Shown here: piece after piece, positions 48,326 to 59,950 of the stretch | Numbering within the stretch: the first letter of the stretch is position 1 | Layout of the letters: every line of letters starts with the position of its first letter | Notes under the pieces: model-generated | The model's database searches: none | Told to the model about the DNA's origin: nothing | What the model saw: the letters and a program-made list of their open reading frames with translations, nothing else | Program-made: the position numbers and the translations under genes | NCBI RefSeq assembly: GCF_000010525.1 | Contig: NC_009937.1 | Span: 1,121,501-1,185,500, forward strand | DNA from: Azorhizobium caulinodans ORS 571 | GTDB taxonomy: Bacteria > Pseudomonadota > Alphaproteobacteria > Rhizobiales > Xanthobacteraceae | DNA: 64,000 bases | Direction of reading: 5' to 3'

Positions 48326-49429
<1,104 letters not shown>

Positions 49430-49481: not shown

Positions 49482-49497
49482 TGTTTCAAACGCGACA
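49482..49497. promoter_or_regulatory. NifA upstream activator site shared by nifH and sufE
   Basis: TGT-TTCAAACGCG-ACA, a perfect TGT-N10-ACA. Its centre is about 79 bases from the nifH -24 element and about 100 from that of sufE, both within the usual range for looping by NifA with IHF. Confidence 0.88.
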
Positions 49498-49587: not shown

Positions 49588-49603
49588 CGGTACGCCCCTT
49601 GCT
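49588..49603 (+). promoter_or_regulatory. Sigma-54-like promoter of sufE
   Basis: CGGTACGCCCCTTGCT: GG at 49589-49590, ten bases, GC at 49601-49602, with the TTGC and YACG positions kept and a C instead of the first T. Transcription would start near 49614, 38 bases before the sufE ATG. Confidence 0.7.
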
Positions 49604-49651: not shown

Positions 49652-50095
49652 ATGACGCTTGTGGACCTCACCCCTCTGCCCACGCTCGAGGACATCTTCG
49701 AGAATTTCGCCCTGCTGGACGATTGGGATGACCGCTACCGTTATGTGATCGAACTTGGTCGCACGCTGCCGCAGCTGCCGGACGCGGACCGTTGCGATAC
49801 CAACAAGGTGCAGGGCTGTGTGAGCCAGGTGTGGCTTGCGACACTGGTGTCGCCCGGCCCCGTCCTGTCGTTCCGGGGCGACAGCGATGCCCAGATCGTC
49901 CGGGGCCTTGTGGCGATCCTGTTCGCGATGTTTTCGGGCCGGACCGCGCGCGACATTCTGGATGCGGACCCCGTCGCCGTGTTCGAGCGCCTCGGCTTGA
50001 AGGAGCATCTGACGCCCCAGCGCTCGAACGGCTTCCGCTCCATGGTCGCGCGCATTCGGCACGATGCGCAGGCCGCGCTGCGCGATCCCATCTGA
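49652..50095 (+). CDS. sufE: SufE cysteine-desulfurase sulfur acceptor
   Basis: 147 residues. The start at 49652 has GGAGGA five bases upstream; the frame is open earlier but without family similarity. LPTLEDIFENFALLDDWDDR opens the SufE fold, and the acceptor cysteine is C56 in NKVQGCVSQVWL. SufE takes persulfide sulfur from SufS and passes it to SufB. It is divergent from nifH with a NifA-type promoter and lies upstream of fdxN-sufBCDS, so it is probably dedicated to nitrogenase Fe-S assembly. Confidence 0.94.
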   Translation: MTLVDLTPLPTLEDIFENFALLDDWDDRYRYVIELGRTLPQLPDADRCDTNKVQGCVSQVWLATLVSPGPVLSFRGDSDAQIVRGLVAILFAMFSGRTARDILDADPVAVFERLGLKEHLTPQRSNGFRSMVARIRHDAQAALRDPI

Positions 50096-50121
50096 GCGGT
50101 GGCCGTCTCCGACAATGTGCC

Positions 50122-50155
50122 TGTCGCAGTCGCGACACGTGTCGGGGGCGCGACA
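50122..50155 (+). promoter_or_regulatory. Two tandem NifA activator sites for fdxN-suf
   Basis: TGT-CGCAGTCGCG-ACA at 50122-50137 and TGT-CGGGGGCGCG-ACA at 50140-50155, both perfect TGT-N10-ACA, centres 18 bases apart (close to two helical turns, so on the same face). They lie 65 and 83 bases from the -24 element of the following promoter. Confidence 0.9.
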
Positions 50156-50210
50156 GGCGATGGCGCCTTTCCGGAACTGGAAAAACTCGAAAAAACAAGG
50201 CCGGAGCGCT

Positions 50211-50225
50211 TGGCACGCAGCTTGC
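50211..50225 (+). promoter_or_regulatory. Sigma-54 promoter of fdxN-sufBCDS
   Basis: TGGCACGCAGCTTGC: GG 50212-50213, ten bases, GC 50224-50225, a full consensus match. The fdxN ATG follows 57 bases later. Confidence 0.93.
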
Positions 50226-50281
50226 GACGAGGGACCTGCGGCCGCCCGAGCAGATGGGCCGCGCGCTCAGGAGCTAGTTTG

Positions 50282-50479
50282 ATGGCCTACAAGATCATCG
50301 CATCCCAATGCACGGTGTGCGGCGCCTGCGAGTTCGAATGCCCGAACGCCGCCATCCGGCTGAAGAACGACATGTACATCATCGACCCGAAGAAGTGCAC
50401 GGAGTGCGAGGGCAGCTTCGACAGCCCGCAGTGCGACGCCGTGTGCCCGGTGCCCGGCACCTGCGTGCCCGCCGGCTGA
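50282..50479 (+). CDS. fdxN: Nif-associated 2[4Fe-4S] ferredoxin (FdxN type)
   Basis: 65-residue ferredoxin. First cluster motif [12 protein letters not shown] near 10-21; second CTEC near 39-42 with an insert (EGSFDSPQ) before [11 protein letters not shown], the FdxN/VnfF variant of bacterial ferredoxins. In rhizobia and Rhodobacter, FdxN donates electrons to nitrogenase. It opens the sufBCDS transcript behind two NifA sites and a sigma-54 promoter. GGAG lies about ten bases before the ATG. Confidence 0.93.
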
Positions 50480-50541
50480 CCTGCCGGGCTGACAGCGTCG
50501 GCTCTCCGTTGCAGCGCCGTGCCGGCTTTCGCCGGCTGGCG

Positions 50542-50564
50542 CCCGGCACGGCCCGCGTGCCGGG
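50542..50564 (+). promoter_or_regulatory. Stem-loop in the fdxN-sufB gap
   Basis: Perfect eight-base arms CCCGGCAC (50542-50549) and GTGCCGGG (50557-50564) with a seven-base loop; the left arm can also pair with an upstream GTGCCGG. No T-run. Similar in position and composition to the hairpins between nifH, nifD, nifK and nifE. Confidence 0.5.
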
Positions 50565-50609
50565 CCTGATCTTCTGCACAGTCCGTTCCATTGCCGTGAG
50601 GAGCCCCAC

Positions 50610-50639
50610 ATGGCCGCCGTTCAGGAGACGATCGATCAG
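50610..50639 (+). promoter_or_regulatory. sufB translation start region
   Basis: The sufB ATG at 50610 is preceded by GAGGAGCCCCAC, giving a strong ribosome site at seven to eight bases. The gap from fdxN is 130 bases with no promoter match, so sufB is read from the fdxN promoter. Confidence 0.5.
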
Positions 50640-52091
50640 GTTCGCCAGATCGATGTCGAGCAGTATAAATACGGGTTCGTGACGGACGTGGAATCCGAAA
50701 AGGCCCCGAAGGGCCTGTCGGAGGACGTCATCCGCTTCATCTCGGCCAAGAAGAACGAGCCGGAGTGGATGCTGGAATGGCGCCTTGATGCCTATCGCCG
50801 CTGGCTTACCATGCGCGAGCCCGAATGGGCCAAGGTGAATTTCCCGAAGATCGATTTCCAGGATCTCTATTATTATGCGGCGCCGAAAAAGAAGAAGGCG
50901 CTCTCCTCCCTCGACGAGGTCGATCCCGAGATTCTGAAGACCTATGAGAAGCTCGGCATCCCGCTGCGCGAACAGGAGCTTCTCGCTGGTGTCGAGCGCC
51001 CGGAAGGCGAGCGCAAGATCGCTGTCGATGCGGTCTTCGACAGCGTCTCGGTGGCCACCACCTTCCAGAAGGAGCTGAAGGAGGCGGGCGTCATCTTCAT
51101 GCCCATCTCGGAGGCCCTGAAGGAACATCCCGAGCTGGTGCGCAAATATCTCGGCACGGTGGTGCCGGTGACCGACAATTACTATGCGACGCTGAATTCC
51201 GCGGTCTTCTCGGACGGCTCCTTCGTCTATGTACCGGAAGGGGTGCGCTGCCCCATGGAGCTCTCCACCTATTTCCGCATCAATGAGAAGAACACCGGCC
51301 AGTTCGAGCGCACGCTCATCATCGCCGACAAGGGCGCCTATGTGAGCTATCTGGAAGGCTGCACGGCGCCCCAGCGCGACGAGAACCAGCTCCACGCCGC
51401 GGTGGTCGAGCTGGTGGTTCTGGACGATGCGGAAATCAAGTACTCCACCGTCCAGAATTGGTATCCCGGCGACAAGGATGGCAAGGGCGGCATCTACAAT
51501 TTCGTCACCAAGCGTGGCGACTGCCGGGGCGCGAATTCCAAGATCAGCTGGACGCAAGTGGAGACGGGCTCCGCCATCACCTGGAAATATCCGAGCTGCG
51601 TCCTGCGGGGCGACGGCAGCCAGGGCGAGTTCTATTCCATCGCCATTTCCAACGGGCATCAGCAGGTGGATTCCGGCACCAAGATGATCCATCTCGGCAA
51701 GAACACGTCGAGCCGGATCGTCTCCAAGGGCATCTCCGCCGGCCAGTCCCAGAACACCTATCGCGGGCTCGTTTCCGCCCACCGCAAGGCCAAGGGCGCA
51801 CGCAACTTCACCGCCTGCGACAGCCTGCTGATCGGAGATCAGTGCGGCGCGCACACCGTGCCTTACATCGAGGCCAAGAACCCGACAACGGTGTTCGAGC
51901 ACGAGGCCACCACCTCCAAGATCTCCGAGGACGTGCTGTTCTATTGCGTGCAGCGCGGGCTCTCGCAGGAGGAAGCCGTGGGGCTCGTGGTCAACGGCTT
52001 CGTCAAGGAGGTGCTCCAGCAGCTCCCCATGGAATTCGCGGTGGAGGCGCAGAAGCTCATCTCCATCTCGCTCGAAGGCAGCGTCGGCTGA
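50610..52091 (+). CDS. sufB: Fe-S scaffold subunit SufB
   Basis: 493 residues. With SufC and SufD it forms the SufBC2D scaffold that assembles [4Fe-4S] clusters. The N-terminus [20 protein letters not shown] and [19 protein letters not shown], the core [40 protein letters not shown] and the conserved cysteine in [20 protein letters not shown] are standard. C-terminal [20 protein letters not shown] is shared with SufD. Transcribed from the NifA-dependent fdxN promoter. Confidence 0.97.
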
Positions 52092-52128
52092 CCTGTCGCT
52101 TCTCCAATTGCAAGGCGAGGACTTCGTG

Positions 52129-52890
52129 ATGACCGCTCTCCTGGAAATCCGCGACCTCAAGGCCGAAGTGGCCGGGCGCCAGATCCTCAACGGGCTGAAC
52201 CTCACCGTGAATGCGGGCGAGATCCACGCCATCATGGGGCCGAACGGAGCGGGCAAGTCCACGCTCTCTTATGTGCTTTCCGGCAAGCCGGGCTATGAGA
52301 TCACCGGCGGCGAGGTCTTCCTCAATGGCGAGGATCTCCTGGCCATGGAGGCGGACGAGCGGGCCGCCAAGGGCCTTTTCCTCGCCTTCCAGTATCCGCT
52401 GGAAATCCCCGGCGTCGCGACCCTCACCTTCCTGCGCACGGCGCTCAATGCCCAGCGCCGCAAGCGGGGCGAGGAGGAATTGTCCTCGCCCGATTTCATG
52501 AAGAAGGTGCGCGAGCTGTCGAAGAAGCTCGGCATCGATCCGGACATGCTGCGCCGGCCGGTGAATGTCGGCTTCTCCGGTGGCGAGAAGAAGCGCAACG
52601 AGACCCTTCAGATGGCGCTGCTGGAGCCGCGCCTGTGCGTGCTGGACGAGACCGACTCCGGCCTCGACATCGACGCGCTGAAGGTGGTGGCGAATGGCGT
52701 CAACCAGCTGCGCGCCGCTGAGCGGGGGATGATCGTCATCACCCACTACCAGCGCCTGCTCGATTACATCGTGCCCGACGTGGTGCACGTGCTGGCGGCG
52801 GGCCGCATCGTGGAAACCGGCGGCAAGGATCTGGCCCTCCAGCTCGAAGCTACCGGCTATGCGCAGTATCAGCAGAGCGAGGCGGCGTGA
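52129..52890 (+). CDS. sufC: SufC ATPase of the Fe-S scaffold
   Basis: 253-residue ABC-type ATPase. I choose ATG 52129 (MTALLEIRDLKAEVAGRQIL), with GGCGAGG upstream; a GTG at 52126 or TTG at 52108 would add a few residues. Walker A GPNGAGKST with K43, Q-loop LAFQYPLEIPGV, signature GFSGGEKKRNETLQMALLEP and Walker B CVLDETDSGLD are visible. It drives conformational change in SufB-SufD. sufD starts at its stop. Confidence 0.97.
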   Translation: MTALLEIRDLKAEVAGRQILNGLNLTVNAGEIHAIMGPNGAGKSTLSYVLSGKPGYEITGGEVFLNGEDLLAMEADERAAKGLFLAFQYPLEIPGVATLTFLRTALNAQRRKRGEEELSSPDFMKKVRELSKKLGIDPDMLRRPVNVGFSGGEKKRNETLQMALLEPRLCVLDETDSGLDIDALKVVANGVNQLRAAERGMIVITHYQRLLDYIVPDVVHVLAAGRIVETGGKDLALQLEATGYAQYQQSEAA

Positions 52891-54221
52891 TGAACGCGCC
52901 CGTCGCCATCAAGACCGAAGCCGAACAGGGGCTGATCAGCGCTTTCGCGGCGGCTCAACCGACCCTGCCGGGCGGGCCGGGCGTTTCCGCCGCGCGCCTC
53001 GCCGCCTTCGAGGCCTTCAACCGGGTGGGGCTGCCGCACCGGCGCGTGGAAGCCTGGAAATATACCGACCTGCGCCGCCTGATGCGCGACGCCAAGCCGC
53101 TTGCGCCGCTGCCGGATGCCGCCGCCAAGGCTGAGGCGGCCTCTGCCGGCGCGCTGCTGGCGGGCCTTGGCCTGCGGCGGCTCGTGGTGGTGGATGGCAG
53201 CTTGGCGCCGGAGCTGTCCGATCTGGCGGATCTCGAACCCGGCCTTACCATCCGCCCCATGGCGGAGGTGTTCGGCGAGGACGGGCCGCTGCTGCCGGAC
53301 TCCTTGCGCGACGCATTGCCGGACGTGGAGCCCGCGCTGGCGCTCAATGCCGCCTTCGCTCGGGATGGCGTCTTCATCGGCGTCGCGCCGGGCGCGGTTG
53401 TCACGCGGCCGATCCATGTGGCCTTCATCACCACTGGCGATGCGCCGCAAGCCGTCTTCAGCCGTTCGCGCGTTGTGCTGGGCGCTGAGGCGCAGCTGGC
53501 ACTGGTGGAGACCCATGAGGCGAAGGCCGGCGTCGAGCATCAGGTGAATGTCGCACTCGGCCTGCTGGTGGGTGACAAGGCACAGCTCGATCATGTGAAG
53601 GTGACGGGCGAGGGCAGCGCCGTTCTCCATGTGGGCAGTCTGGTCGCGAGTGTCGGGGCGCAGGCGCGTTTCGGCTCGTGCGGCTTCACCCTCGGCGGCG
53701 CCACGGTGCGCAACCAGCTCTATGTGCGCTTGGTCGGCGAGACGACAGAGCTGAACCTTGCCGGCGCGAGCCTGCTCTGCGGCAAGCAGCATGCGGACAC
53801 GGCGCTCTTCTTGACCCACGCAGCGCCGGGCAGCACCAGCCGCGAAGTGTTCAAGGCGGTAGTGGACGACAAGGCCGAAGCAGCCTTCCAGGGCCGCATC
53901 ACAGTGGAGCAGGCGGCGCAGCAGACGGACGCGCGGATGATGTCGCGCGCCCTGCTGCTCTCCGAGGAGGCCGAGGCCTATTCCAAGCCGGAGCTGGAAA
54001 TCTTCGCCGATGATGTCCAGTGCGGCCATGGCGCCACCGTGGGCACGCTGGATGAGCAGCTGAAATTCTATCTGAAGGCCCGCGGCATTCCCGCCAAGGA
54101 GGCGGAGGCGCTGCTGATCCAGGCCTTCATCGGCGAGGTGCTGGACGGCATCGCGCACGAGGGCGTCCGCGAGGCGTTGACCGCCGCAACGGTGAGCTGG
54201 CTGGAGGCGCGCGGCGCATGA
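52890..54221 (+). CDS. sufD: Fe-S scaffold subunit SufD
   Basis: 443 residues from ATG 52890, which shares a base with the sufC stop (an in-frame GTG at 52887 is also possible). Central beta-helix region includes LNLAGASLLCGKQHADTALF; the conserved histidine lies in DDVQCGHGATVGTLDEQLKF, and the C-terminus AFIGEVLDGIAHEGVREALT is typical. The N-terminal third is variable, as usual in SufD. It heterodimerises with SufB. Confidence 0.95.
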   Translation: MNAPVAIKTEAEQGLISAFAAAQPTLPGGPGVSAARLAAFEAFNRVGLPHRRVEAWKYTDLRRLMRDAKPLAPLPDAAAKAEAASAGALLAGLGLRRLVVVDGSLAPELSDLADLEPGLTIRPMAEVFGEDGPLLPDSLRDALPDVEPALALNAAFARDGVFIGVAPGAVVTRPIHVAFITTGDAPQAVFSRSRVVLGAEAQLALVETHEAKAGVEHQVNVALGLLVGDKAQLDHVKVTGEGSAVLHVGSLVASVGAQARFGSCGFTLGGATVRNQLYVRLVGETTELNLAGASLLCGKQHADTALFLTHAAPGSTSREVFKAVVDDKAEAAFQGRITVEQAAQQTDARMMSRALLLSEEAEAYSKPELEIFADDVQCGHGATVGTLDEQLKFYLKARGIPAKEAEALLIQAFIGEVLDGIAHEGVREALTAATVSWLEARGA

Positions 54222-55498
54222 ACATGCATCCTTCCGTCACGCCCCCGACCGTGCCCGCCCATCCGGCGGTGACCGGGGAGGCCTATGACGTGGCGCGCGT
54301 GCGCGCGGATTTCCCCATCCTCGGCCTCAGCGTCTATGGCAAGCCGCTGATCTATCTGGACAATGCAGCGTCCGCCCAGAAGCCGCAGCAGGTGCTGGAC
54401 CGCATCACGCAGGTCTATGCGTCGGAATATTCCAACGTGCACCGGGGCCTGCATTATCTCGCCAATGCAGCGACCGAGGCTTATGAGGGCGCCCGCGAGA
54501 AGGTGCGCGCCTTCCTCAATGCGCCGAGCACGGAAGAGATCATCTTCACCAAGGGTGCGACGGAGGCCATCAACCTCGTGGCCCACACTTTCGGCCGCAC
54601 GCGCGTTGGCGCGGGCGATGAGATCGTGCTCTCCATCATGGAGCACCACGCCAATGTGGTGCCCTGGCATTTCCTGCGCGAGCGGCAGGGCGCGGTGCTG
54701 AAATGGGCGCCGGTGGACGACGAGGGCAACTTCCTCCTCGACGAATTCGAGGCCCTGCTCACCGAGCGCACCAAGCTTGTCGCCATCACCCAGATGTCCA
54801 ACGTGCTCGGCACGGTGGTGCCGGTGAAGGAGGTGGTGCGCCGCGCCCATGCCCGGGGCATCCCGGTGCTGGTGGATGGGTCGCAGGCCAGCGTCCATAT
54901 GGACGTGGACGTGCAGGACATCGATTGCGATTTCTATATCATCACCGGCCACAAGCTCTATGGGCCGACGGGCATTGGGGCACTCTACGGCAAGGCGGAG
55001 ATGCTCGCCGGGCTGCCGCCGTTCAATGGCGGCGGGGAGATGATCCGCGAGGTGTCGCGCGACACCGTCACCTATGGCGCGCCGCCCCATCGCTTTGAGG
55101 CGGGCACTCCGCCCATCGTGCAGGCGGCGGGGCTCGGCGCGGCGCTGGATTACATGGCCTCCCTCGGCAAGGCGCGCATCCAGGCCCATGAGGCGGATCT
55201 CTTGGCCTATGCGCAGGAGCGCCTGTCGGAAATTTCCGGCCTCAAAGTCTATGGCACGGCGGCGGAGAAGGGGGCGCTCATCTCCTTCTCTCTGGAGAAT
55301 ACGCACGCCCATGACGTCGCGACGGTGATCGACCGCTCCGGCGTGGCGGTGCGCGCCGGCACCCATTGCGCCATGCCGCTGCTGGAGCGCTTCGGTGTCG
55401 CCGCCACCTGCCGCGCCTCCTTCGCCCTCTACAACACGCGCGGCGATGTGGATGCGCTGGCGGAGGCCCTGATCAAGGCGCGCAGTTTCTTCGCCTGA
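54218..55498 (+). CDS. sufS: Cysteine desulfurase SufS (group II)
   Basis: 426 residues, PLP enzyme that extracts sulfur from cysteine as a persulfide for SufE. The start overlaps the sufD stop (ATGA). YLDNAASAQKPQQVLDRI, SNVHRGLHYLANAATEAYEG and the PLP lysine K246 in ITGHKLYGPTG are present. The persulfide cysteine is C398 in AATCRASFALYNTR, in the short group II loop (SufS rather than NifS/IscS). No nifS or nifU is seen in the window, so this is the likely sulfur source for nitrogenase clusters. Confidence 0.96.
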   Translation: MNMHPSVTPPTVPAHPAVTGEAYDVARVRADFPILGLSVYGKPLIYLDNAASAQKPQQVLDRITQVYASEYSNVHRGLHYLANAATEAYEGAREKVRAFLNAPSTEEIIFTKGATEAINLVAHTFGRTRVGAGDEIVLSIMEHHANVVPWHFLRERQGAVLKWAPVDDEGNFLLDEFEALLTERTKLVAITQMSNVLGTVVPVKEVVRRAHARGIPVLVDGSQASVHMDVDVQDIDCDFYIITGHKLYGPTGIGALYGKAEMLAGLPPFNGGGEMIREVSRDTVTYGAPPHRFEAGTPPIVQAAGLGAALDYMASLGKARIQAHEADLLAYAQERLSEISGLKVYGTAAEKGALISFSLENTHAHDVATVIDRSGVAVRAGTHCAMPLLERFGVAATCRASFALYNTRGDVDALAEALIKARSFFA

Positions 55499-55750: not shown

Positions 55751-56542
55751 TCAAGTGGGGGCATTCAGCCGCGCCAGTGCCAGATCCCGGATGGCCGCCA
55801 CCTCGTCCTCTGCCATGCCTGCGAGATGGGCCAGCGGCAGCCGCTCGGCGACGGCGAAGCGCACGCGCATGTCGGCATCGCGCATCAGCACGGTGAGCCG
55901 CTCGGGCGGCAGCCGTTCGGCCACCGTGACGCGCACCAGAGGGTCCGCATCCGCTGCCATGGTGACGAGATTGGGGAGCGGCACGCGCCGGGCGACTTCG
56001 CGCCGGACCTCGATGTCGGGATCATAGAGCGCCATGATGAGCGATTCCGGCGGCGCCCGCCGGGCCGCCACCACCCGCACCCGATAATCCGCATCCCCCA
56101 GCATGGCGACCAGCATCCGGCCCTCCAGCCGGTGCGCAACCGCCATGCGCACACGCGGATCCGGATCGTCGCGCATGTCGGTGATGCGGGCGAGCGGCAG
56201 GCGGTAGGCCACCATCACCCGCACGTCCGGTTCCGTGTCCGCCTTCAGCGGCGGCAGCAGGAACACGCTGGCATGCTTGGCGGCGAGCAGCCGTACCTCG
56301 GAGTAGGGATGGGTCAGATAACGCGCCGCCAGTTCCGGATTGCGGGCGAAGAAGCGGTCGATCCGACGGGTACGCCGGTCGGCCACGCAGACCTTGCCGA
56401 GATCGCAGCGGCCGATGGCCTGAATGTCCTCGTGCGGGCAATCCTCGCAGCGCACGGGGCGTCCCTGCCAGTCCAGCGCCTCGAAGCTTCCCGGCGGATC
56501 CGGCGGCGCGGCGGGCTCCGGTGCCGTGTGCTCACCGCTCAT
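55751..56542 (-). CDS. LRV protein: [4Fe-4S] domain plus leucine-rich variant repeats
   Basis: 263 residues. The N-terminal part has a four-cysteine cluster motif (VRCEDCPHEDIQAIGRCDLG then KVCVADRR). After that come at least seven tandem helical units of about 24 residues with the pattern DPDxxVRxxVAxRLP (for example DPDPRVRMAVAHRL and DADMRVRFAVAERLP). This is the leucine-rich variant protein first described beside nif genes in Azotobacter; its role is unknown. It follows nifA by 96 bases. The start ATG at 56542 is the second half of a hairpin (see 56540-56559). An upstream frame extension to 56623 has no family support. Confidence 0.88.
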   Translation of the reverse strand: MSGEHTAPEPAAPPDPPGSFEALDWQGRPVRCEDCPHEDIQAIGRCDLGKVCVADRRTRRIDRFFARNPELAARYLTHPYSEVRLLAAKHASVFLLPPLKADTEPDVRVMVAYRLPLARITDMRDDPDPRVRMAVAHRLEGRMLVAMLGDADYRVRVVAARRAPPESLIMALYDPDIEVRREVARRVPLPNLVTMAADADPLVRVTVAERLPPERLTVLMRDADMRVRFAVAERLPLAHLAGMAEDEVAAIRDLALARLNAPT

Positions 56543-56559
56543 GGGAGGGGGGCTCCCAT
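56540..56559 (-). promoter_or_regulatory. Hairpin hiding the LRV ribosome site, with a six-codon upstream ORF
   Basis: On the minus strand ATGGGAG (56559-56553), five C, then CTCCCAT (56547-56541): a perfect seven-base stem. The left arm contains the only good Shine-Dalgarno (GGGAG) and the right arm covers the start codon. The left arm also begins an ATG whose six-codon frame ends in a TGA overlapping the LRV ATG. Confidence 0.5.
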
Positions 56560-56612
56560 AAAACGGCCCGGCGCTTTCCCGCGGGCGCCGCGATCGGCGG
56601 CCGGACGGGACA

Positions 56613-56638: not shown

Positions 56639-58486
56639 TCAGAAGCGCTTGATGTCGATGTCATATTTGCGCAGCGCATAACCCACCTGGCGCGGCGTGA
56701 GGTTGAGGAGGCGCGCGGCCTTCGCCTGCACCCAGCCGGAGCGCTCCATGGCCTGGAGCAACTGCTCCTTTTCGCTCTGGCGGGGGGGCACCGCGGGACA
56801 GGCCTCGGTGCCGGGGCAAGTGACCGGCAGGCTGTCGGCCGCCGGCGCCGGGCTCGCCGCAGCGGGCGCTGCGGTCGCGAGCGGAGCAGGGGAGAGCGGA
56901 GTCAGCGGCGTGGGCGCCGGCGGCACGTGCGGCATCACAGGCTTCGGGGCCGAGCCCTTCCAGAGCATGGCCGAGAGGCACTGGCCGCTGTCGCAGGCGA
57001 AGTCATGGGGGGTGATGACGGCATCGTGGGCGAGCGTTGCCGTCCGCCGGATACAGTTCTCCAGCTCGCGCACGTTGCCCGGGAAATAGCAGCGCCGCAG
57101 CACGTCGATGGCCGGCGCCGAGAGCATCATGTGGAGCTTGTTTTCCTTGTTGAAGCGGTCGAGGAAGTTCTTCGCGAGCTTGGGAATGTCGCCCGGCCGT
57201 TCGCGCAGCGGCGGCAGGATCAGCGGCACCACATGGATGCGGTAGTAGAGATCGGCCCGGAACTCGCCCTTGGAGACCGCCTCTTCCAGATTCTTGTTGG
57301 TGGCGCACACGAGCCGCACATCCACCTTCAGCGTGCGATTGCCGCCGACCCGCTCGAACTCGCCTTCCTGCAGCACGCGCAGCAGCTTGGCCTGGAAAGC
57401 GGGGGTGATCTCGCCGATCTCGTCAAGGAAGAGCGTGCCGCCGTGCGCCAGCTCGAAGCGGCCCTGGCGCATGTTCAGCGCACCGGTGAAGGCGCCCTTC
57501 TCATGGCCGAACAGTTCCGATTCCAGCACCGATTCCGGGAGGGCGGCGCAGTTCACCTTCACGAAGGGCTTGCCCTTGCGGGGCGACAGTTCGTGGATGG
57601 CACGGGCGAACAACTCCTTGCCGGTGCCGCTCTCCCCGCGCAGCAGCACGGTGGAGTTTGAGCGGGCGACCACTTGCGCGGTCGCGATCAGGCGTTTCAC
57701 CAGCGGGCTATCGCCCACGATGCCCATGGCGGATCCGTTGGCGGCCTCGGCCACCTCCGGCTCGGCCCCGGATTTTTCTTCCCGCAGCGCCTTTTCGAGG
57801 CGGTGCGTCTGGGCGATCAGCCGGTCGCGGTCGCTCGCCACCAGCTTGTGCAGGCGCACGGTCTGGCCGACGAGATTGGCCACCATGGTGAGGAAGCGCA
57901 CGTCCTCGTCGAAGCGGAAACGGGCGGTGCCGTCCCAGATGCGGTCGATGGAGAGGGTGCCCATCACATGGTGGTCGGCCTTGATCGGCACGCCGATGAA
58001 GGAGACGGTGGCCTCCTCAGGCGGGCCGAACAGATCCTCGTGACCGGCGAAGAGCGGATCGGCCGTCACGTCCTGCACCACCAGCGGCATCTGCGTGGCG
58101 ACGATCTGGTCGATGGCCTTCTGGGGCACATGCGCGCGGATCTGGCCCGCCATCTCAGGCGTCCAGCCGGTGGTGGCCACCATGTCGGGATCGCCCTCGC
58201 TGTCGAGGATGCAGATCATGCCATGCCGCATCTGCAGCATGGAGGAGAGCACGTTCACCACATTGGCGAGCGTGACTTCGAGGCGCCGGGGCGCCGTCAG
58301 GATCTTCGATATCTCATAGACCCCGATGAGTGCCACCTCGGGCGAGGTCCCCCGCGACATGGACACAGGCATCCCTCCCGGGCGCGGCAGCGCGCCCCGC
58401 GTGGTGATGGATGACGCGGCGATGTCTCCGGCGGTGCTCGACGAAACCCGAGGTACGCGGACCTGGAAGGCGTCGGTCATTGGCAT
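56639..58486 (-). CDS. nifA: Nif-specific sigma-54 activator NifA (oxygen-sensitive class)
   Basis: 615 residues. N-terminal GAF domain (about 65-215), central AAA+ domain with Walker A GESGTGKE (K290), the sigma-54 contact loop GAFTGA (331-336), and a C-terminal helix-turn-helix ([20 protein letters not shown]). Four cysteines C466-x11-C478-x19-C498-x4-C503 between the AAA+ end and the linker are the oxygen/iron-sensing signature of rhizobial-type NifA, absent in Klebsiella and Azotobacter. The interdomain linker is long and Pro/Ala-rich and carries two further cysteines. A FixK box lies upstream, and the collinear ahpC-ahpD genes precede it. Confidence 0.97.
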
Positions 58487-58684: not shown

Positions 58685-59230
58685 TTATTCCGCAGCTTCC
58701 GGAAAACCCGCGCCGGCGGCCTCGAGGGCCACCGCGGCGGAGGCGATGATGGCGCCGACGCGCACCGCCGTCTGGATCTGGGCCTCGCTGAGGCCCGCCT
58801 CGCGCAGCACCGCCTCATGGGCATCGATGCAGCGGCCGCATCCGTTCATGGCCGAGACGGCGAGCGACCAGAGTTCGAAGTCCACCTTGTCCACGCCGGG
58901 ATTGCCGATGACGCTCATGCGGAGCTTCGCCGGCAGGGTCTCATAGGCCTTGTTGGAGGCCAGATGCGTAAATCGATAGTAGACGTTGTTCATGGCCATG
59001 ATGGAGGCCGCCGCCTTCGCCGCGTCGAGCGCGGCCGGCGAAAGGTGGGGGGCGGCCTCTGCCTCCAGTGCCTGCGCGACCGTGCCGTTGCGCGTGGTGT
59101 AGCCGCAGGCGACCAGCAGCCCGTAGAGCTGCTGTTCGGTCAGGCTGTCCTCCCGCGGCAGGGCGGAAAGGTTGAGCTTCACGTCCTTCGCAAAAGCGGG
59201 AAGCTGGGTCTTGAGCGCCTCGATGCTCAT
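58685..59230 (-). CDS. ahpD: Alkylhydroperoxidase AhpD (carboxymuconolactone decarboxylase fold)
   Basis: 181 residues with the AhpD active site CGRC (C131, C134) followed by the proton-relay histidine in IDAHE. The N-terminus [20 protein letters not shown] and the [20 protein letters not shown] stretch match mycobacterial-type AhpD, which reduces AhpC through a lipoyl adaptor. Four bases downstream of ahpC, one operon. It lies between ahpC and nifA. Confidence 0.93.
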
Positions 59231-59234
59231 CCGC

Positions 59235-59789
59235 TCAGGCCACCTTCAGCACGTCGCCGCCGACCTCGCGGTTGCAGGGGCACAGTTCGTCCGTCTGCAG
59301 GGCGTCGAGCACGCGCAGCGTGTCCTTCGGATTGCGGCCGACATTGAGGTTGGTCGCATAGACGTGCTGCACCACATTGTCGGGATCGACGATGAAGGTG
59401 TAGCGATAGGCGACGCCATCGGGTGAGCGCACGCCGAGTCCATCCACCAGCGAGCCGTTGGTGTCGGCGAACGACCAGATGGGCAGGCGGTTGAGGTCCT
59501 TGTGGTCGCGCCGCCAGGCGAGCTTCACGAACTCATTGTCCGTCGAGCCGCCGAGCACCACGGCGTCGCGGTCGGCGAAATCGCCCGCAAGGCGCGCGAA
59601 TTCCGCGATTTCGGTCGGGCAGACGAAGGTGAAGTCCTTCGGATAGAAGAAAATGATCTTCCACTTACCGGGGAAGCTCGCTTCCGTGACCGTCTCGAAG
59701 GCGGACTGCCCGTTCTCCTCGTGGAGGTTGAAGCCGGGCTTCACGCCGGTGACCGAGAAGGCGGGAAGGGTGCTGCCGATGCCGAGCAT
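59235..59789 (-). CDS. ahpC: Peroxiredoxin AhpC
   Basis: 184-residue two-cysteine peroxiredoxin. The peroxidatic cysteine is C57 in [13 protein letters not shown], and the resolving cysteine is in [13 protein letters not shown] near the C-terminus. Reduces hydrogen peroxide, alkyl peroxides and peroxynitrite, with electrons from AhpD (no ahpF here). Its promoter is a sigma-54 site with a NifA site 70 bases further upstream rather than an obvious OxyR site, so the pair appears to be induced with nitrogenase. Confidence 0.95.
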
Positions 59790-59859: not shown

Positions 59860-59874
59860 GCAAGGCGTATGCCA
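59860..59874 (-). promoter_or_regulatory. Sigma-54 promoter of ahpCD
   Basis: Minus strand TGGCATACGCCTTGC: GG at 59873-59872, ten bases, GC at 59861-59860. One transition from TGGCAC, all other conserved bases kept. Transcription would start near 59848, about 60 bases before ahpC. Confidence 0.85.
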
Positions 59875-59934: not shown

Positions 59935-59950
59935 TGTCGGCTTTCCGACA
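59935..59950. promoter_or_regulatory. NifA activator site shared by ahpCD and the YqeB-like gene
   Basis: TGT-CGGCTTTCCG-ACA, a perfect TGT-N10-ACA. Its centre is 70 bases from the ahpC -24 element and about 138 from that of the divergent gene. Confidence 0.85.

Follow-up and report, generated by a model that had tools for sequence, protein, structure and literature searches.

The nif-linked suf genes and their promoters

In this work we examined the suf genes that lie beside the nitrogenase genes nifHDKENX of Azorhizobium caulinodans ORS571, in a stretch of 64 kb (the window; C1:1121501-1185500) of a genome that consists of a single contig, C1, of 5,369,772 bp. An earlier note, made from the sequence alone, had described sufE and fdxN-sufB-sufC-sufD-sufS next to nifHDKENX, and both family models and gene positions bear this out. 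The suf genes and fdxN are all located on the plus strand, at the positions given in that note (window coordinates throughout the list):

sufE, 49652..50095, plus strand: sulfur acceptor of SufS; PF02657, 157 bits (cut-off 27); cysteine motif QGCVSQV
fdxN, 50282..50479, plus strand: dicluster 4Fe-4S ferredoxin of 65 amino acids
sufB, 50610..52091, plus strand: scaffold subunit; TIGR01980, 637 bits (cut-off 346)
sufC, 52129..52890, plus strand: scaffold ATPase; TIGR01978, 352 bits (cut-off 213)
sufD, 52890..54221, plus strand: scaffold subunit; TIGR01981, 241 bits (cut-off 222)
sufS, 54218..55498, plus strand: group II cysteine desulfurase; TIGR01979, 584 bits (cut-off 475); active-site context RAGTHC
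nifH, 48326..49216, minus strand: first gene of the nifHDKENX run, divergent from sufE
nifA, 56639..58486, minus strand: activator presumed to act on the upstream activator sequences; PF00158, GAF, HTH_8

What characterizes a SUF system was thus found in the window: SufB, SufC and SufD above their curated cut-offs, a group II SufS and a SufE partner. The narrower SufE equivalog model NF006792 was not reached by the window SufE (131 of 160). The TIGR01979 result rejects the possibility that sufS is a misnamed nifS, and together with the RAGTHC context it confirms the group II assignment of the earlier note. The dicluster ferredoxin, which we take to be FdxN, matched its models weakly (Fer4, 26.5 bits with a cut-off of 21.1; YfhL-type model, 72 bits of a cut-off of 86), and its gene is the first of the nif-linked suf module in the relatives that were mapped. 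It is separated from sufB by 130 bases, and the spacings from sufB through sufC and sufD to sufS are +37, -1 and -4.

Promoters of the NifA/sigma-54 type had been proposed for both suf transcripts. Using TGT-N10-ACA as the pattern of an upstream activator sequence (UAS) and counting pairs of UAS and sigma-54 box with a spacing of 40-200 bp, we found the following elements before the two transcripts and before nifH:

UAS TGTTTCAAACGCGACA, 49482..49497, no strand assigned: lies between the divergently oriented sufE and nifH; possibly shared by the two
sigma-54 box CGGTACgccccTTGCT, 49588..49603, plus strand: before sufE
sigma-54 box TGGCACacccgTTGCA, 49397..49412, minus strand: before nifH
UAS 1, 50122..50137, no strand assigned: before fdxN
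UAS 2, 50140..50155, no strand assigned: before fdxN
sigma-54 box TGGCACgcagcTTGCG, 50211..50226, plus strand: before fdxN-sufBCDS; aligned in relatives

At the level of UAS and sigma-54 boxes the proposal was therefore correct. The whole window holds five such pairs, compared with a mean of 0.13 and a maximum of 1 in 30 first-order random windows. Each of the 24 nif-linked loci of relatives that were checked has a UAS upstream of fdxN; 23 of them have two, spaced by 19 bp as against 18 bp in the window, and a TGGCAY-N5-TTGM box follows 56-91 bp beyond the UAS in all 24 loci when TTG[CA] is accepted. Housekeeping suf operons were free of any UAS in 54 of 54 cases, four of them having a lone sigma-54-like match. 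By promoter sequence, the UAS and sigma-54 box would place fdxN and the suf genes in the NifA regulon.

Iron-sulfur machinery in the genome and among relatives

The window does not hold the only SUF system of the organism, a possibility that is rejected by the presence of a housekeeping operon, iscS-sufB-C-D-S-T-A, at about 4.139-4.147 Mb of C1. SufB, SufC, SufD and SufS are homologous between the two loci and share 82%, 71%, 46% and 66% identity, respectively. However, the housekeeping operon includes iscS, sufT and sufA and has neither a UAS nor fdxN, whereas the window genes lack iscS, sufT and sufA and are flanked by fdxN upstream and by an lrv gene and nifA downstream, an arrangement that is not that of a housekeeping operon. 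In the assembly, the housekeeping sufB (L019:9078-10460, minus strand, at about 4.144 Mb of C1) is frameshifted near codon 430. The frameshift is a one-base difference from two congeners and the downstream sequence is still closely similar to both, so that very recent loss is indistinguishable from a sequencing error; if the frameshift is real, the nif-linked copy is the sole intact SufB.

As the earlier note had stated, neither NifU nor NifS is encoded in the 64 kb: searches for NifU_N, Nfu and NifS gave no match within the window, and all matches in the genome are outside it. At C1:3937906-3939705, a UAS and a sigma-54 box are followed by an iscA-like gene, a "nifU" of 94 codons with an Nfu domain, nifS and nifT/fixU; the genes are named nifU (AZC_3410) and nifS (AZC_3411) by Lee (2008). 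NifS is intact (C1:3938551-3939702; TIGR03402, 572 bits with a cut-off of 531) and has its own NifA-type promoter. The 94-residue "NifU" covers model positions 209-290 of 290, reaches 80 of 273 bits and consists of the Nfu domain alone, without the N-terminal scaffold and central domains. Full-length NifU with the N-terminal scaffold was not found by the search of the genome, in which NifU_N matched just one gene, SufU-like and adjacent to a folE-like gene, with 36.5 bits. A NifA-type nifUS pair is therefore present in name, but its NifU is devoid of the scaffold domain. Of the earlier claim that SUF acts in place of NifU and NifS, the part concerning the NifU scaffold stands and the part concerning NifS does not; replacement of NifS by SUF is rejected by the intact nifS behind a NifA-type promoter and by its retention in relatives. 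A gene for a SIR2-like domain protein (PF13289; L022:4578-5438, plus strand) lies between nifT/fixU and the next NifA-type promoter (UAS at L022:5564, sigma-54 box at L022:5638).

To see how SUF and NifU are distributed in the family, SufB and NifU_N were sought in the 115 of 391 genomes in which the NifD model TIGR01282 exceeded its cut-off. In 24 of them NifU_N matched strongly, with an E value of 2.7e-31 or better and in a frame of 315-385 amino acids; in the remaining 91 genomes the match was weak, with E values of about 1e-5 to 1e-10. Linkage of suf and nif was present in 52 of the 115 nifD-positive genomes and full-length NifU in 24; none had both and 39, including the fragmentary G216, had neither (Fisher one-sided 4.5e-8, uncorrected for kinship). 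The 52 are defined by a second copy of sufB, except that G025 and G138 were included for nif-linked suf genes that run into a contig end at sufB. On mapping, each of the 52 proved to have suf genes, whether sufB or others, adjacent to fdxN or to nif genes; nine of the loci are cut by contig ends or gaps. No second SufB was detected in the 24 NifU genomes. By genus, the nif-linked SUF occurs in nine and NifU in five, and two genera (g10 and g44) have neither throughout; genus g7 is mixed, with NifU in three genomes and nif-linked SUF in one.

NifS was found in 78 of the 80 genomes searched out of the 115, including all 34 with nif-linked SUF that were among them. Around nifS, the Nfu domain occurs alone in 13 of 13 loci from nif-SUF genomes and full NifU in four of four loci from NifU genomes. 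The lone Nfu domain sits between iscA and nifS, where the NifU loci have the full protein, and NifU is thus truncated in situ. Retention of NifS together with absence of the NifU scaffold suggests that SUF stands in for the latter and not for NifS. Outside the family, where class-wide sampling is thin, 11 genomes were nifD-positive; six have NifU_N in a frame of 304 amino acids or longer and five do not, and one of these five (G433) has two short frames of IscU size. None of these 11 genomes has a second SufB. A scan of 362 relatives based on SufE mostly met unlinked sufE genes; 80 loci were kept, and 18 of these have other nif-type suf genes adjacent. The cysteine is present in 17 of 17 sufE frames, and the reading frames of the nif-linked suf genes are open at 38 of the 41 loci tested.

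The distribution is related to nodulation genes. NodA (PF02474) was sought in 58 Bradyrhizobium-like genomes and called absent if no match was better than 1e-10. The nif-linked sufB is kept in 11 of 11 NodA-negative genomes and in 18 of the 47 that are NodA-positive (Fisher 3e-4, uncorrected); all 29 Bradyrhizobium-like genomes without it are NodA-positive. In three Bradyrhizobium-like loci with neither system, fdxN alone is retained. Two NodA-bearing genomes have a nif-linked suf operon that is broken or lacks parts (L177 of G376 and L235 of G369), and the closest NifD relative of G376, G330, has lost it.

Phylogeny of the suf genes and homogenization of sufB

In a SufD tree of 62 rows, 18 nif-linked rows of a main type form one group (support 99/96) apart from all housekeeping rows, and main-type SufD proteins are 44-55% identical to their own housekeeping counterparts. 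Five Bradyrhizobium-like nif rows, a second type, fall among the housekeeping proteins, and one of them is sister of its own housekeeping copy (100/98). By contrast with this division, all 24 nif rows stay together in a SufS tree of 64 rows made with a quick method (support 96), and SufS is of the nif type in 19 of 19 genomes compared. The two trees together indicate that, in the second type, housekeeping proteins took the place of the nif scaffold subunits and SufS was retained.

The SufB tree is mixed, with eight changes needed for the nif labels of the main type. The best match is nearer to a housekeeping copy for SufB in 5 of 21 genomes, for SufC in 4 of 21, for SufD in 1 of 18 and for SufS in 0 of 19. 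At the DNA level, the two sufB copies within a genome reach 99% identity in G043 (L153/L154), with an identical run of 1211 bp, 97% in G235 (L163/L164) and 96% in G319 (L169/L170); sufC, sufD and sufS of the same genomes are at 63-79%, with sufD at 63-66%. Gene conversion would be the simplest reading of this pattern. In ORS571 the two sufB genes are 83% identical and no recent exchange is seen. The assemblies of several relatives break inside sufB.

The suf module tracks the nifD lineage. Among the 81 rows of a NifD tree, those with nif-linked SUF all belong to one set of 52 rows, in which 16 Bradyrhizobium-like rows with neither system are nested, and the NifU rows make up two other sets. 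The label "neither" requires eight changes over 23 rows, at least six of them by well-supported branches. The simplest reading would be one gain of SUF in one nif lineage and several later losses, these in Bradyrhizobium-like genomes with NodA; repeated gain is possible.

Proposed role, precedents and alternatives

Linkage of suf and nif in Bradyrhizobium is already in print (PMC6066989, PMC6167111, PMC11973431). The locus of ORS571 resembles those of Bradyrhizobium DOA9, TSA1 and photosynthetic strains, where fer/fdxN-sufBCDS and sufE are the same genes beside nifA and nifDKENX. Unlike the Bradyrhizobium loci, in which fdxN-sufBCDS is inverted, Azorhizobium and G051 have this block in the same direction as sufE. 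A C-terminal fragment of NifU is listed for strain ORS278 (PMC3899966), and the passages on Bradyrhizobium suf in these sources draw no link to the loss of the NifU scaffold. Transcripts of sufE, sufD, sufB and sufS fall in rpoN mutants of DOA9, with no distinction made between the two suf sets (PMC13207237). The closest functional precedent comes from Paenibacillus polymyxa WLY78, where a SufCDB scaffold, a NifS-like donor and the Nfu protein YutI serve nitrogenase (PMC8038749). The combination of a SUF scaffold, a NifS-type donor and an Nfu-only carrier recurs in Azorhizobium, where it is known from genes. However, P. polymyxa uses a single housekeeping sufCDSUB operon that is unlinked to nif and contains SufU, whereas Azorhizobium has a nif-linked paralogue and SufE. 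In comparison with the NifU-NifS system of Azotobacter and Klebsiella, NifS and the IscA-like protein are kept, but the Azorhizobium NifU is without the N-terminal scaffold and central domains. For ORS571 itself, the genome paper assigns AZC_1036 (nifX) to AZC_1041 (nifH) and AZC_1049 (nifA) (PMC2443382). The term "suf" is absent from the text of that paper and of PMC5017802, PMC6422874 and PMC4999443, and a literature search by locus tag returned one paper, in which a dnaA primer carries the label Azc_1047.

We consider it likely that the suf genes of the window form a second SUF line that is set aside for nitrogen fixation and takes over the scaffold work of NifU. This is argued for by the mutual exclusion of nif-linked SUF and NifU, the truncation of NifU in situ, the retention of NifS, the conserved UAS before fdxN and the separate clades of main-type SufD and of SufS, as well as by the association of the module with one nifD lineage, the effect of rpoN in DOA9 and the Paenibacillus precedent. 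Upon activation by NifA, RNA polymerase with sigma-54 would transcribe sufE and fdxN-sufBCDS along with the nif genes. SufS and SufE would make persulfide and the SufB-SufC-SufD scaffold would build clusters, thereby doing the work of the absent N-terminal domain of NifU. By analogy with Paenibacillus, NifS, produced from its separate NifA-type operon with the IscA-like protein and the Nfu-only NifU, probably contributes extra sulfur, and the Nfu and IscA helpers probably deliver completed clusters to NifH, NifB and NifDK. FdxN probably supplies electrons.

Several observations weigh against this assignment. The strict TTGC form of the -12 box before fdxN occurs in just 3 of 24 loci, the others having TTGA at the same place, and the pattern was relaxed to TTG[CA] after the alignment had been inspected. 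Among 16 relatives, the sufE promoter pair was matched in five, and nine have no UAS in 350 bp, so that this promoter is either less conserved or missed by the pattern. Because 39 of 115 nifD-positive genomes manage without full NifU or nif-linked SUF, a dedicated scaffold is not indispensable; among five nifS loci from such genomes, three (from two genera) are Nfu-only, a fourth matches Nfu weakly and the fifth has no match. Near-identity of nif-linked and housekeeping SufB in some genomes argues against a strict separation of function, and the set of 52 NifD rows has a support of just 88 in one quick tree. In the openly accessible literature, neither expression nor suf-operon mutant data were found for ORS571. 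Transcriptomes of the strain reportedly exist.

Some of the same facts could be explained by dosage, with the second SUF just raising the general capacity for cluster building under the iron and sulfur drain of nitrogenase and having no preference for that enzyme. Occasional homogenization of SufB and replacement of SufC and SufD by housekeeping copies in one Bradyrhizobium sub-group make the scaffold core seem exchangeable, and the 39 genomes with neither system also fit. The separate clade of main-type SufD and the uniformly nif-type SufS argue against dosage, and a copy that only adds dosage would have no need to exclude NifU; we therefore regard this explanation as unlikely. That the suf genes are passengers, which came to lie among the nif genes fortuitously and have no role in fixation, would agree with the damaged operons of the two NodA-positive genomes G376 and G369, but it is highly improbable given NifA sites kept in every nif-linked locus examined, the open frames and the conserved catalytic motifs.

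Adaptation to oxygen or oxidative stress, the rationale suggested in the earlier note, would be a reason for a dedicated SUF line and not an alternative to it. SUF could work where oxygen or iron limitation cripples NifU, a need that would arise in free-living fixation and not in nodules. The pattern of losses is compatible with this, all NodA-negative Bradyrhizobium-like genomes having kept the nif-linked sufB, and a promoter of NifA type also precedes a peroxiredoxin gene close to nifA. On the other hand, neither system is present in genera g10 and g44, and the NifU genomes of three genera could equally be oxic fixers. Moreover, nif lineages of the nodule type occupy one part of the NifD tree, so that kinship alone may explain the link with NodA. 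On balance, this cause is conceivable, if short of probable. More tentatively, and with some doubt, a history can be proposed for the dedicated line: after a single loss of the NifU scaffold, in one nif lineage, a SUF line that had been captured may have taken over its task and then been split by selection, with SufB kept interchangeable by gene conversion and SufS, SufD, SufE and FdxN acquiring a preference for nitrogenase, and the line may have been discarded repeatedly in nodule-only fixers where housekeeping SUF is enough. In the openly accessible literature, we found no statement on the exclusion of SUF and NifU, the losses in nodulators or the homogenization of SufB.

Cluster supply to nitrogenase is a bottleneck for moving nitrogen fixation into new hosts, for which NifU and NifS are commonly co-transferred. 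A natural SUF route with NifA-type promoters and a truncated NifU, sampled in nine genera, offers an alternative that evolution has tested, and genus g7 allows NifU and SUF to be compared directly inside one genus. With the loss of the module linked to nodulation genes, the question of what a nodule spares the bacterium becomes testable. If SufB is shared and SufD and SufS are specialized, this points to where target choice of SUF lies.

Genes adjoining the module

Between sufS and nifA, at 55751-56569 on the minus strand, lies the gene for an LRV protein that carries a 4Fe-4S motif at its N-terminus (PF05484, PF01816). An lrv gene adjoins fdxN also in genomes without nif-linked SUF (G044, G053). 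Genes for an AhpC-like peroxiredoxin and an AhpD-like protein, both named by eye, are located at 58685-59789 on the minus strand, upstream of nifA. They are preceded by a NifA-type promoter (59950 to 59859, minus strand) with a UAS at 59950 and a sigma-54 box at 59874, and perhaps constitute a peroxide defence under NifA control.

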